A stretch of DNA of 64,000 nucleotides from positions 868,001 through 932,000 of the forward strand of contig NZ_FQVN01000001.1 in NCBI RefSeq assembly GCF_900129375.1. The letters are read 5' to 3'. The stretch comes from Streptoalloteichus hindustanus (lineage in GTDB: Bacteria > Actinomycetota > Actinomycetes > Mycobacteriales > Pseudonocardiaceae). Numbering within the stretch: the first letter of the stretch is position 1; the number at the start of each line of letters is the position of its first letter. Position numbers and translations under genes: made by a program. Positions 27,077 through 31,358 of the stretch are shown here, one piece after another. The notes under the pieces are model-generated. The model searched no databases, was not told the origin of the DNA, and saw nothing but the letters and a program-made list of their open reading frames with translations.

Positions 27077-27577
27077 ATGGCCCCCACGACCTCCACACGC
27101 GACAACGCCGACCGCAGGCCCGACGCACGGCGTCAGCTGCGGGCGGCCGGACTGCGCGTGACCGCACCCCGGCTGGCCGTCCTGGACTGGCTGGCCGGGC
27201 ATCCGCACGCCACCGCAGACGAGGTGGCCACCGCCGTCCGGGAACGGCTCGGCACGGTGTCCACCCAGGCCGTCTACGACGTCCTGAATGCCTGCACCCG
27301 CGTCGGGCTGCTGCGGCGCATCGAGCCGGCCGGTCACCCGGCCCGGTTCGAGACCCGTGCCGGTGACAACCACCACCACCTGGTGTGCCGGCAGTGCGGA
27401 CGAACCGAGGACGTCGACTGCGTGGTCGGCGCCCGACCCTGCCTCGACCCGTCGGACACGGCGGGGTTCGAGGTGGAAGAGGCGGAGGTCCTGTTCTGGG
27501 GGCTGTGCCCCGACTGCCGGAGCACCGGTGCCGCACCGAGCTCCCACGCCCACCACGAGGAGGAGGGACGAGCGTGA
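27077..27577 (+). CDS. furA: Fur-family peroxide-responsive repressor (FurA/CatR type)
   Basis: A 166-residue regulator with an N-terminal winged helix ([28 protein letters not shown], then [22 protein letters not shown]) and a C-terminal metal domain with [17 protein letters not shown] and CPDC; the two CxxC pairs form the structural zinc site. FurA in mycobacteria and CatR in streptomycetes repress the adjacent catalase gene and are inactivated by peroxide oxidation. Here the gene overlaps a catalase start by 4 bp (GTGA), so the two are co-transcribed and probably autoregulated through the A/T-rich operator upstream. Confidence 0.92.
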
Positions 27578-29019
27578 CCCCAGCGCCGTACACCACGACC
27601 AACGCGGGCATCCCGGTCGCCAGCGACGAGCACTCGCTCACCGTCGGCCCGAACGGGCCGATCCTGCTGCAGGACCACTACCTCATCGAGAAGATGGCGC
27701 AGTTCAACCGCGAGCGCGTGCCCGAGCGCGTGGTGCACGCCAAGGGCGGCGGTGCGTTCGGCTTCTTCGAGACGACCGAGGACGTCAGCCAGTACACCAA
27801 GGCCGCGCTGTTCCAGCCCGGCGTGCGGTCCGACGTCCTGCTGCGGTTCTCCACCGTGGCCGGTGAGCTGGGCTCGCCGGACACCTGGCGCGACCCGCGC
27901 GGGTTCGCGGTGAAGTTCTACACCTCCGAGGGCAACTACGACCTCGTCGGCAACAACACGCCGGTCTTCTTCCTCCGCGACCCGATCAAGTTCCAGGACT
28001 TCATCCGGTCCCAGAAGCGTCGTGCCGACAACGGCCGCCGCGACCACAACATGCAGTGGGACTTCTGGACCCTGTCGCCGGAGACGGCGCACCAGGTGAC
28101 GTGGCTCATGGGTGACCGGGGCATCCCCGCCACCTGGCGGCACATGGACGGCTTCGGCTCGCACACCTACCTGTGGGTCAACGCCTCCGGCGAGCGGTTC
28201 TGGGTCAAGTACCACTTCAAGACCGACCAGGGCATCAGGACGCTCACCGCGGACGAGGCCGCCCGGATCGCCGGGGAGGACGCCGACCACCACATCGCCG
28301 ACCTCTGGAACGCGATCGAGCGCGGCGAGCACCCGAGCTGGACGCTGCACGTGCAGGTGATGCCGTTCGAGGACGCCGCCACCTACCGGTTCAACCCGTT
28401 CGACCTGACCAAGGTGTGGCCGCACGCCGACTACCCCCTGATCAAGGTCGGCCGGCTGGTGCTCGACCGCAACCCCGCGAACTACTTCGCGGAGATCGAG
28501 CAGGCCGCGTTCGAGCCCTCGAACCTGGTTCCGGGCATCGGGCCCTCCCCGGACAAGATGCTGCTCGGCCGGCTGTTCTCCTATGCGGACGCCCACCGCT
28601 ACCGCATCGGCACGAACTACGCCCAGCTCCCGGTCAACCGACCGAAGTCCCCGGTGTACACGTACTCCAAGGACGGCGCGATGCGGTACGAGAACGTCGC
28701 CGACCCGGTGTACGCGCCGAACTCCTACGGTGGTCCGCACGCCGACACCCAGCGCTACGGCGACGTGGCGGGCTGGCACGCGAGCGGCGAGATGGTGCGC
28801 GCCGCCTACGAGAAGCACGCCGAGGACGACGACTTCGTCCAGGCCCGCGCCCTCGTCCGTGAGGTGATGGACGAGACCCAGCGCGAGCAGCTGGTCAAGA
28901 ACGTCGTCGGGCACCTGTCCAACGGCGTCTCGCAGCCGGTCCTGGAGCGGGCGTTCGAGTACTGGCGGAACATCGACAAGGAGGTCGGCGACCGGATCGC
29001 CGAGGCCTTCCAGCGCTGA
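27574..29019 (+). CDS. katA: Monofunctional haem catalase
   Basis: A 481-residue small-subunit catalase. The distal His lies in [16 protein letters not shown], the conserved Asn in [16 protein letters not shown], and the proximal Tyr haem ligand in [37 protein letters not shown] is the family's other hallmark. It decomposes hydrogen peroxide in the cytoplasm. GTG 27574 overlaps the regulator stop and has GAGGAGGGA upstream. Pairing with a Fur-type repressor resembles the Streptomyces catR-catA unit rather than furA-katG, because this is not a catalase-peroxidase. Confidence 0.97.
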
Positions 29020-29122
29020 CCGCCCCGGTCGCTCGTCGCTCGCGGCGGCCGACGCGCTCCCACCACACCGCGCCCTCGGGGCTCGGGTCGTGAGGACACC
29101 GACGTCCTCGCGCCCCGGCCCC

Positions 29123-29160
29123 GGGGGCGTTCCCCGTTCCCGGGTTCAGGAAACGCCCCC
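29123..29160 (+). terminator. Terminator downstream of catalase
   Basis: GGGGGCGTT (29123-29131) pairs with AACGCCCCC (29152-29160), about 100 bp beyond the catalase stop. Confidence 0.5.
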
Positions 29161-29316
29161 GGACTCGCCCGCCACCACGGGCGACCGGTTGAGCCGTGGT
29201 CGTCGGTTGCTGTCGATCTACCCACCTCCTTTCCGCTGGGCGGCGACGGATGCCGCCTCGTCGCCGAGGGTGTCCCGACCGGTCGGGCAGGGGTTTCCGG
29301 GGGCGGCGACCGACGT

Positions 29317-29329
29317 GTCCACTGTGGAC
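29317..29329. repeat. GTCCAC-T-GTGGAC palindrome, intergenic copy
   Basis: Perfect 13-bp palindrome, extended to TGTCCACTGTGGACA at 29316-29330. One of several copies in the window. Confidence 0.6.
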
Positions 29330-29521
29330 AGCAGGGGAAGAACGTCCAACTCCGCGGCGCTGGAAAGGAAGTGCCTGCCCGGGCAGGGTGCGAATCCCTC
29401 GGCATGCGGTGGTCGGCTTCTGCGATGTCCGATACCGTCGACCGATCCGACTGGTGATTCCCCTGACTCCGGGCGCCTGACTCCATCCCCGGCGAACCCT
29501 GTGCCCGATGTTGCCAGAGAG

Positions 29522-29537
29522 TCGAACCCACGTTCGA
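29522..29537. promoter_or_regulatory. LexA (SOS) box 1
   Basis: TCGAAC-CCAC-GTTCGA is an exact match to the actinobacterial SOS box TCGAAC-N4-GTTCGA. No DNA-repair gene is adjacent. Confidence 0.7.
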
Positions 29538-29574
29538 CCTCTCGCCACCGAGTTCATACGGTCAGGCGATCTAG

Positions 29575-29590
29575 TCGAACGTATGTTCGA
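29575..29590. promoter_or_regulatory. LexA (SOS) box 2
   Basis: TCGAAC-GTAT-GTTCGA, again a perfect SOS box, 53 bp from box 1. TATGTT inside it could be a plus-strand -10, but no recognisable gene follows. Confidence 0.75.
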
Positions 29591-29747
29591 ACACTGCCCG
29601 GAGTGGGGTGCTGTTTCCGTGCGGCAGCCGAGGGCTGGGAAGGATCACGAACTGGCTCTGCGGACAGGCCCGGAACCGCGCGGGGGGTGGCGCCTGTCGC
29701 ACGGGCTTGACCTCTAGCCAGCTTGAACTCTTAGCGTGCGCTGGTGC

Positions 29748-30131
29748 TCAACCGCACTCAGCAGCGCCTCGCTGACACCAGGGGGTCGTGCCAGGAAACC
29801 GGAAACGGTTGTTGGCGACCCAGCGGTACGCGGCCTCCTGGAGCCGACGCATGCCGGGAAGGCGGTAGACGCGCAGCGGCAGCGATGTCCCCAACGCGGC
29901 CGACAACGCGTAGTTCACCGCTTCTGCCGCAGAGGCACGAGGCATCCCGTTCTCGTCGATCCACCACACAGAGGACGCCAGTTGCTCAGTGGTCAGCCCG
30001 TAGCGCTCCGCCGTCCCGGGTAGCTGGTACGCGACCGTCTCCACACGCCCGTGGCGGTCCAGGCGCTCCAACCAGTTCCGGCACCGTGTGCAGAACCCGC
30101 AGTGGCCGTCGAACAGCAGCTTTCCGTGCAT
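29748..30131 (-). CDS. DUF393 (DCC1-like) thiol-disulfide oxidoreductase family protein
   Basis: A 127-residue protein starting MHGKLLFDGHCGFCTRCRNWLERLD. The DGxCGFC motif near the N-terminus defines the DUF393/DCC family, named for its Asp-Cys-Cys pattern and predicted to have a thioredoxin-like fold. The middle (SSVWWIDENGMPRASAAEAVNYAL) and the C-terminal VANNRFRFPGTTPWCQ are also typical. Its redox substrate is unknown. ATG 30131 is preceded by GGAAG. It is divergent from the FMN reductase gene with only 36 bp between starts. Confidence 0.85.
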   Translation of the reverse strand: MHGKLLFDGHCGFCTRCRNWLERLDRHGRVETVAYQLPGTAERYGLTTEQLASSVWWIDENGMPRASAAEAVNYALSAALGTSLPLRVYRLPGMRRLQEAAYRWVANNRFRFPGTTPWCQRGAAECG

Positions 30132-30167
30132 CTTCCCAGCTTCCTCGGTGATGGAAGGATCCTCCAT

Positions 30168-30749
30168 ATGAGCTTGACCGTAGTGGGCATCGGCGGCTCG
30201 ATCCGCTCCGACTCGACGTCCGAGCGGGCCCTGCGGATCGCGCTGGCCGGGGCCGAGGAGGCCGGAGCGCGGACCTCTCTGATCACCGGCGGCGAGCTCG
30301 TGTTGCCGTTCTACGACCCCGCGGTGCCCGACCGGACCGAGGCGGCCAGGCACCTGGTGGAGACGCTGCGGGGCGCGGACGGCGTCGTGCTCGTCTCGCC
30401 CGGCTACCACGGAACGGTGTCCGGCCTGGTCAAGAACGCGCTCGACTACGTGGAGGACCTGCGGTCGGAGGACCGCCCGTACCTGGACGGCCGGGCGGTG
30501 GGCTGCGTCGCGACCGCGCAGGGCTGGCAGGCGGCGGTCACCACGCTCACCGCCTTGCGGTCGATCGTGCACGCCCTGCGCGGTTGGCCCACTCCGTTGG
30601 GGGTGGCCCTCAACTCCAACGAGGTGAAGATCGGGCCAGAGGGTGACGCCTCCGACGAGCAGGTAGTGCGCAACCTGCGCACTATTGGCCGTCAGGTGGT
30701 GGAGTTCGCGTTGGCCCAACGGGGTGAGAAGGCGCACAACGACGCATAA
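30168..30749 (+). CDS. NADPH-dependent FMN reductase family protein
   Basis: A 193-residue flavodoxin-like reductase. VGIGGSIRSDSTSERALRIAL is the FMN phosphate-binding loop, SPGYHGTVSGLVKNALDYVEDL the conserved isoalloxazine/dimer motif. Proteins of this family reduce FMN, quinones or chromate using NAD(P)H. ATG 30168 has GGAAGGA about 9 bp upstream. The context of a thiol-redox protein, Dps and catalase fits an oxidative-stress role, but this is inference. Confidence 0.9.
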   Translation: MSLTVVGIGGSIRSDSTSERALRIALAGAEEAGARTSLITGGELVLPFYDPAVPDRTEAARHLVETLRGADGVVLVSPGYHGTVSGLVKNALDYVEDLRSEDRPYLDGRAVGCVATAQGWQAAVTTLTALRSIVHALRGWPTPLGVALNSNEVKIGPEGDASDEQVVRNLRTIGRQVVEFALAQRGEKAHNDA

Positions 30750-30869: not shown

Positions 30870-31358
30870 ATGACCACTATGAGTCACCCGATCACCAGCA
30901 CCCTGGGGCAGTCCGAGCGGGAGGCCACCGGCGCCCTGCTCCAGGCGGCCCTTCTCGACCTCATCGATCTCTCGCTCGTGGCCAAGCAGGCGCACTGGAA
31001 CGTCGTCGGCCGCCACTTCCGCGACGTCCACTTCCACCTGGACGAACTGGTCGCGCTCGCCAGGAAGTACACCGACGAGGTGGCCGAGCGGTCCTCCGCG
31101 ATCGGCGTCTCGCCGGACGGGCGGGTGCGCACCGTCGCCGCAGGCTCGCGCGTCCCGGAGTTCCCGGACGGCTGGCAGACGGACAAGAACGTGGTGCGGG
31201 CGATCGTCGAGGCGCTCGACGTCGTCGCGCTGCGGATGCGCACCCGGGTCGAGGAGTCGGAGCAGCCCGACCCGGTGACCCAGGACCTGTTCATCGAGAT
31301 CACGCAGGCGTTGGAGAAGACCCGCTGGATGTGGCAGGCCAAGCTCGTCGAGAGCTGA
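30870..31358 (+). CDS. dps: Dps family DNA-binding ferritin-like protein
   Basis: A 162-residue protein with the intersubunit ferroxidase motif: KQAHWNVVGRHFRDVHFHLDELV supplies the His and Asp/Glu ligands. The four-helix pattern and the C-terminal ITQALEKTRWMWQAKL match Dps. Dps forms 12-subunit shells that oxidise iron with peroxide and protect DNA. ATG 30870 has GAGGAG at 9-nt spacing. It is followed by a very strong terminator. Confidence 0.94.
   Translation: MTTMSHPITSTLGQSEREATGALLQAALLDLIDLSLVAKQAHWNVVGRHFRDVHFHLDELVALARKYTDEVAERSSAIGVSPDGRVRTVAAGSRVPEFPDGWQTDKNVVRAIVEALDVVALRMRTRVEESEQPDPVTQDLFIEITQALEKTRWMWQAKLVES

Follow-up and report, generated by a model that had tools for sequence, protein, structure and literature searches.

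A LexA box kept in two genera in the convergent gap behind a catalase gene of Streptoalloteichus hindustanus, possibly the operator of a short transcript

SOS regulons are usually assigned from LexA boxes adjacent to genes, and a box with no recognisable gene beside it raises the question of what LexA might control there. The window (the whole stretch of Streptoalloteichus hindustanus DNA that was analysed, 64 kb) contains two such boxes: box 1, TCGAAC-CCAC-GTTCGA, at positions 29522-29537, and box 2, TCGAAC-GTAT-GTTCGA, at 29575-29590, neither of which is assigned to a strand. Both match the 16-bp palindrome of a LexA operator, TCGAAC-N4-GTTCGA, without mismatch. A pattern scan confirmed both boxes where an earlier note on this DNA had placed them, 53 bp apart from start to start (about five helical turns), and detected no further perfect match in the window. 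The SOS box of mycobacteria, reportedly described by Davis and colleagues in 2002, is said to be the same palindrome. Its typical targets are repair genes, unlike the surroundings of the boxes described here.

The gap holding the boxes extends over 728 bp (29020-29747), rather than the 590 bp given earlier, from the stop of a catalase gene (27574-29019, plus strand; Pfam PF00199) to the end of a gene for a DCC1-like thiol-disulfide oxidoreductase (29748-30131, minus strand), whose 3' end faces the boxes. The two genes flanking the gap are convergent, and both end here, a correction to the earlier description of the nearest genes as running the wrong way or ending here. The catalase gene follows a gene for a Fur-family regulator (27077-27577, plus strand; PF01475), and beyond the DCC1-like gene lie genes for an NADPH-dependent FMN reductase (30168-30749, plus strand; PF03358) and a ferritin-like protein (30870-31358, plus strand; PF00210), which we take to be of the Dps type. 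We compared this locus with that of one congener (G001), which constitutes the within-genus comparison, and with that of a member of another genus (G010), whose catalase is 86% identical. The DCC1-like gene is intact in S. hindustanus and, by translation, in G010 (L189), although no tblastn match to it was found in the G001 locus (L046). An inverted repeat behind the catalase gene (29121-29162, plus strand) is the most conserved block of the gap and is presumably a terminator, albeit absent from the list of the terminator scan. At the other end of the gap, a promoter-like element presumably of the MerR/SoxR type (TTGACC-19 nt-TAGCGT; 29707-29737, plus strand) is also present in G001 and G010, and with TAGTCT upstream of the FMN reductase gene in a further genome, G115. 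In S. hindustanus, the opposing DCC1-like gene sits between this element and the FMN reductase gene.

The earlier view that the boxes are unlikely to have arisen by chance was borne out. With up to two mismatches, the window contained 14 matches against 2.39 expected, a number that none of 100 shuffles reached. The complete genome of S. hindustanus (G000; 7.28 Mb) carries 10 perfect boxes, including the two described here, whereas the composition of the window predicts 0.35 (first-order) to 1.29 (third-order), and the reversed-pattern control gave none. With up to one mismatch, 61 boxes were found in this genome compared with 12 for the control, and perfect boxes numbered 9 in G001 and 14 in G010 (control: 0 in each). 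The lexA gene of S. hindustanus has a perfect box upstream, with two one-mismatch boxes at distances of 16 and 81 bp from the perfect one, and a protein with LexA_DNA_bind and Peptidase_S24 domains is encoded downstream of a perfect box in both S. hindustanus and G001 (L033 and L037). We infer that the LexA of this genome uses the TCGAAC-N4-GTTCGA motif. The other boxes were assigned by ORF position and Pfam: in addition to lexA, boxes precede a radical-SAM gene that contains an intein-like insert, an MFS transporter gene, a divergent HEPN/tRNA-edit pair, a gene with a SUFU domain, and an ORF of 271 codons that has no Pfam match, and one box lies inside the start of a 112-codon ORF (L029:2090-2428), whose GTG start falls within it. 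The radical-SAM gene (L028:2096-4099) matches LAGLIDADG and, below threshold, an intein-splicing domain, and its ATG lies 8 nt past the box.

The two boxes of the gap differ sharply in conservation. G001 and G010 are the two relatives found to share this neighbourhood closely. The distance from the catalase stop to a perfect box is 502 bp in S. hindustanus, 508 bp in G001, and 503 bp in G010, with a changed N4 in the relatives. Three genomes in two genera are thus known to carry box 1 at this locus, whereas box 2 is absent from both relatives. Of the 675 columns in the alignment of all three genomes, 210 were invariant. The windows beginning at box 1 had 19 of 25 invariant columns against a mean of 8, making the box 1 block the second-best conserved block of the gap after the catalase hairpin (22 of 25). 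Identity around this block was 63% between S. hindustanus and G001 (203/322) and 47% between S. hindustanus and G010 (136/287). All 12 core columns of the box were invariant, which at the rate outside the block has a probability of about 4e-7, with a block size set by hand and columns treated as independent. The conservation extends to both flanks, and on the minus strand all three genomes have the order CGCYYGWCCGNHTGAA, 15 nt, box, 0 or 1 nt, TCTCTGnCAnnAT. The right flank, TTCANNCGGWCRRGCGA (29553-29569), is 15 nt from box 1 in each of them, and the left flank (29508-29521, minus strand) consists of TCTCTG followed by a weak -10-like CAACAT (29513-29508), which is CACCAT in G001 and CATGAT in G010. 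On these grounds, the assignment of box 1 to the SOS system is well supported, and it is very probably a real LexA operator; box 2, found in neither relative, appears private to this species among the genomes compared.

As a test of the boxes, the earlier note had proposed to ask whether relatives with the same flanking genes conserve them. Box 1 passed it in G001 and G010, where box 2 failed, and more distant catalase loci lacked a box. We inspected the best 30 catalase loci, with 1.5-kb flanks, of those from 201 of the 297 family genomes. Besides S. hindustanus and G001, an FMN reductase gene lay within the flank at 16 of these 30 loci, in the same order and orientation at 15, and none of the 16 had a box even with up to one mismatch, which suggests that the operator is specific to this lineage. 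Likewise, 27 of the 30 loci, all but those of S. hindustanus, G001, and G010, had no box behind the catalase gene. Among at least 80 named catalase loci listed (none of this genus by their titles), no perfect box was found; three also had an FMN reductase gene, and one of these three had a one-mismatch box inside the catalase gene. Since a perfect box behind the catalase gene was found in S. hindustanus, G001, and G010 and at no other of these loci, box 1 would have arisen or arrived between the older Fur-catalase and FMN reductase genes in the common ancestor of the genus and G010 and retained thereafter, and we read this retention as selection on an operator. The pattern GCCAGAGAGTCGAAC-N4-GTTCGA with up to three mismatches matched 183 of 297 family genomes and was therefore too unspecific for use. 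A composite pattern (box, 14-16 nt, TTCANNCGG) matched 6 of 390 family genomes (control: 0), namely S. hindustanus, G001, and G010, plus G115, G300, and G359 at other loci; as about one chance match was expected by hand estimate, the latter three were not counted as support.

We then considered what the gap itself might encode. Differences between S. hindustanus and G001 were spread evenly over codon positions (40/109, 38/106, and 41/107), indicating that the gap is not evolving as a gene would. Some ORFs in the gap can be aligned between the two genomes. The longest of them is on the minus strand and shows 39.5% identity over 220 aa (E 1e-20), and several shorter ones lie in other frames; the long alignment is explained by plain similarity of the DNA, which is 63% identical there. 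In G010, stop codons close the three minus-strand frames 30, 8, and 60 codons past the box. The gap ORFs were rejected as genes on these three counts, and three of them had no Pfam match. A AAGGAGGTG motif resembling a Shine-Dalgarno sequence (29223-29231, minus strand), about 290 nt beyond box 1 on that strand, is present in the three genomes by eye, with no conserved start codon after it.

Searches for RNA features in the gap were similarly negative. The tRNA scan gave none in the gap, and Rfam gave no match above threshold in the window, with four matches far under the gathering score (best E 0.023) and one tRNA outside the window. Predicted folding was no better than that of shuffled sequences (z 0.55 for minus 29170-29505, -0.15 for plus 29540-29745, and -0.47 for minus 29364-29505), so that neither a known RNA family nor an unusual structure marks a LexA-controlled small RNA here. 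The promoter scan of 28900-30300 revealed no sigma-70-like site, and a strict TANNNT 3-12 nt from box 1 was absent from either strand in S. hindustanus and G001. The minus strand of all three genomes carries a weak -10-like CANNAT 7-8 nt past box 1. It may be a -10 element, in which case box 1 would sit between -35 and -10. A five-pair terminator-like stem (29374-29387) lies on the minus strand, some 135 nt downstream of box 1. It was the single one found against 0.5 expected, which is chance level, and was not visible by eye in G001 or G010. On the plus strand, the right flank of box 1 is conserved and the sequence beyond it diverges completely. An unrecognised small gene or RNA, as the earlier note suggested, may be present, but the gap shows no coding signal between S. 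hindustanus and G001, no Rfam family, and no unusual fold. A short transcript without conserved coding content may be the target of box 1, with chances about equal for and against.

The alternative that the earlier note had offered, a deleted DUF222/HNH gene that left its promoter behind, is not supported. DUF222 (PF02720) was found in none of the three genomes at E 0.001, with a positive control in Corynebacterium glutamicum, and a leftover promoter would hardly be retained across two genera. Loss or decay of some other LexA-controlled gene to the right of box 1 could account for the divergence of that stretch, which measures 169 bp from box 1 to the MerR-type element in S. hindustanus, 304 bp in G001, and 607 bp in G010 and does not align among them; between S. 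hindustanus and G001, the catalase-to-box 1 stretch aligns and the DNA right of box 1 is unalignable until 29685-29750 (66 bp, 91% identical). The variable stretch of G010 (L189:4520-4865) moreover holds open fragments in shifting frames without a known family, including a 12-codon frame (MMFSR...) beginning 9 nt past the box and, in different frames, two pieces of 38 and 76 aa. Neither of the two pieces had an NCBIfam match, and Pfam gave a single match far below cut-off. The 76-aa piece matched itself and one weak sequence in 200 family genomes, three weak sequences in 2 of 394 class genomes, and none in plasmids, and its GC content by codon position (0.84/0.42/0.67) is unlike that of a normal GC-rich gene. 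Together with the conservation of box and flanks across two genera, which a dead promoter should not show, this makes a lost gene other than DUF222 unlikely. The weak family match lies antisense to an ORF that we take to be whiB-like; a whiB-like identity of the G010 stretch was rejected, as the sense comparison was weak. An origin from mobile DNA was also rejected: plasmid records matched the catalase end only, with no match elsewhere at the locus, the G010 fragment included.

Three further explanations assign the boxes a different role, or none, and each is less likely still. A candidate 44-codon ORF (29583-29717, plus strand) has its ATG inside box 2 and might be a tiny leaderless gene under the control of the boxes, by analogy with the 112-codon ORF (L029), whose GTG has the identical offset inside its box, and with the radical-SAM ORF, which begins 8 nt behind its box. 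This is very unlikely, given that box 2 is missing from G001 and G010, that tblastn of the ORF against these two genomes gave only short weak matches, that its GC content by codon position (0.76/0.53/0.76) reveals no clear coding bias, and that box 1, the conserved box, would be left without a role. There is also a slim chance that box 1 controls a long transcript on the plus strand that extends into the genes for the FMN reductase and the Dps-like protein, linking SOS to oxidative defence, as the presence of both genes downstream in all three genomes and the conserved right flank would allow; in S. hindustanus, however, 630 bp and an opposing gene separate box 1 from the reductase gene, which seems to have its own MerR/SoxR-type element, found also in G115, where the reductase gene is at the catalase locus and there is no LexA box. 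Finally, LexA might bind here and regulate nothing. According to the available excerpts of a Streptomyces venezuelae study, dnaE2 alone changed expression after damage among the genes with an intragenic LexA site (PMC9380542), but at box 1 conservation reaches into the flanks beyond the box itself, and we consider a silent site highly doubtful.

The explanation that we prefer, and hold to be about evenly balanced between right and wrong, is that box 1 serves as the LexA operator for a transcript that is short and probably non-coding, with box 2 a recent second operator. LexA bound at box 1 would repress a promoter in the conserved block, and DNA damage, through RecA-driven cleavage of LexA, would release it, as in the known SOS mechanism. 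We slightly prefer the minus strand as the direction of transcription, and such a transcript would end before or at the hairpin behind the catalase gene. Box 2, on about the same face of the helix, may tighten repression in this species only. A bolder version, in which an SOS-induced RNA specific to this lineage extends from box 1 along the minus strand in the direction of the catalase 3' end and ties DNA damage to the surrounding oxidative-stress genes (Fur, catalase, FMN reductase, and Dps-like), seems to us improbable.

LexA sites away from gene starts have been reported in other actinobacteria, one of them at a small-RNA locus, so that gene-less sites are already a known kind, as far as the excerpts available to us describe them. 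In S. venezuelae, 498 LexA ChIP peaks included 270 sites near start codons and 208 intragenic sites, with the consensus tCGAAC-N4-GNNCGa (PMC9380542). That regulon resembles the situation here in its motif and in its many sites off gene starts, whereas its off-promoter sites are intragenic and the present site lies in a convergent gap and is kept in two genera; the excerpted text of that paper contains no mention of small RNA, noncoding, intergenic, or catalase. In Mycobacterium tuberculosis, LexA was located at MTS2823, a homologue of the small RNA Ms1, according to excerpts of a later paper (PMC4191392, citing Smollett et al. 2012). The likeness is that of LexA at a non-coding locus of an actinobacterium; however, the small RNA to which MTS2823 is homologous has been characterised, whereas the candidate transcript described here has no Rfam match and no unusual fold. 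A gene-less box kept in two genera marks a place where annotation probably misses an SOS-controlled product.

The convergent gap between a RIO1 kinase gene and a GH6 gene also contains a LexA box (L032:2065, L038:1501) with no recognisable gene start next to it, and this box is retained in G001. The only ORFs that start nearby are 50 and 63 codons long, and CACCAT follows 7 nt behind the box in both genomes. With the two boxes described here, 3 of the 10 boxes of the genome have no recognisable gene, and, if the bolder version given above were true, its RNA would belong, with that of the RIO1/GH6 box, to a group of non-coding transcripts under LexA control in convergent gaps. At the SUFU site (L035, L043, L211), a TANNAT lies 8 nt behind the box in S. 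hindustanus, G001, and G010, directed away from the SUFU gene, and by eye it faces an opposite-strand frame that would encode a short acidic peptide. As the remaining boxes of S. hindustanus and G001 have no strict TANNNT at that place, we attach little weight to this promoter geometry. Pairs of perfect boxes 39-66 bp apart from start to start were found in 4 of 297 family genomes, S. hindustanus included (control: 0). The other three pairs were located behind an IMPCHase/AICARFT gene in one case, before a DnaX-like gene in another, and approximately 0.7 kb from a BP74-domain gene in the third. Perfect LexA boxes approximately 140-220 bp behind the 3' end of an IMPCHase/AICARFT gene occur in two genera (G010 L207:1501; G013 L216:1501-1577).
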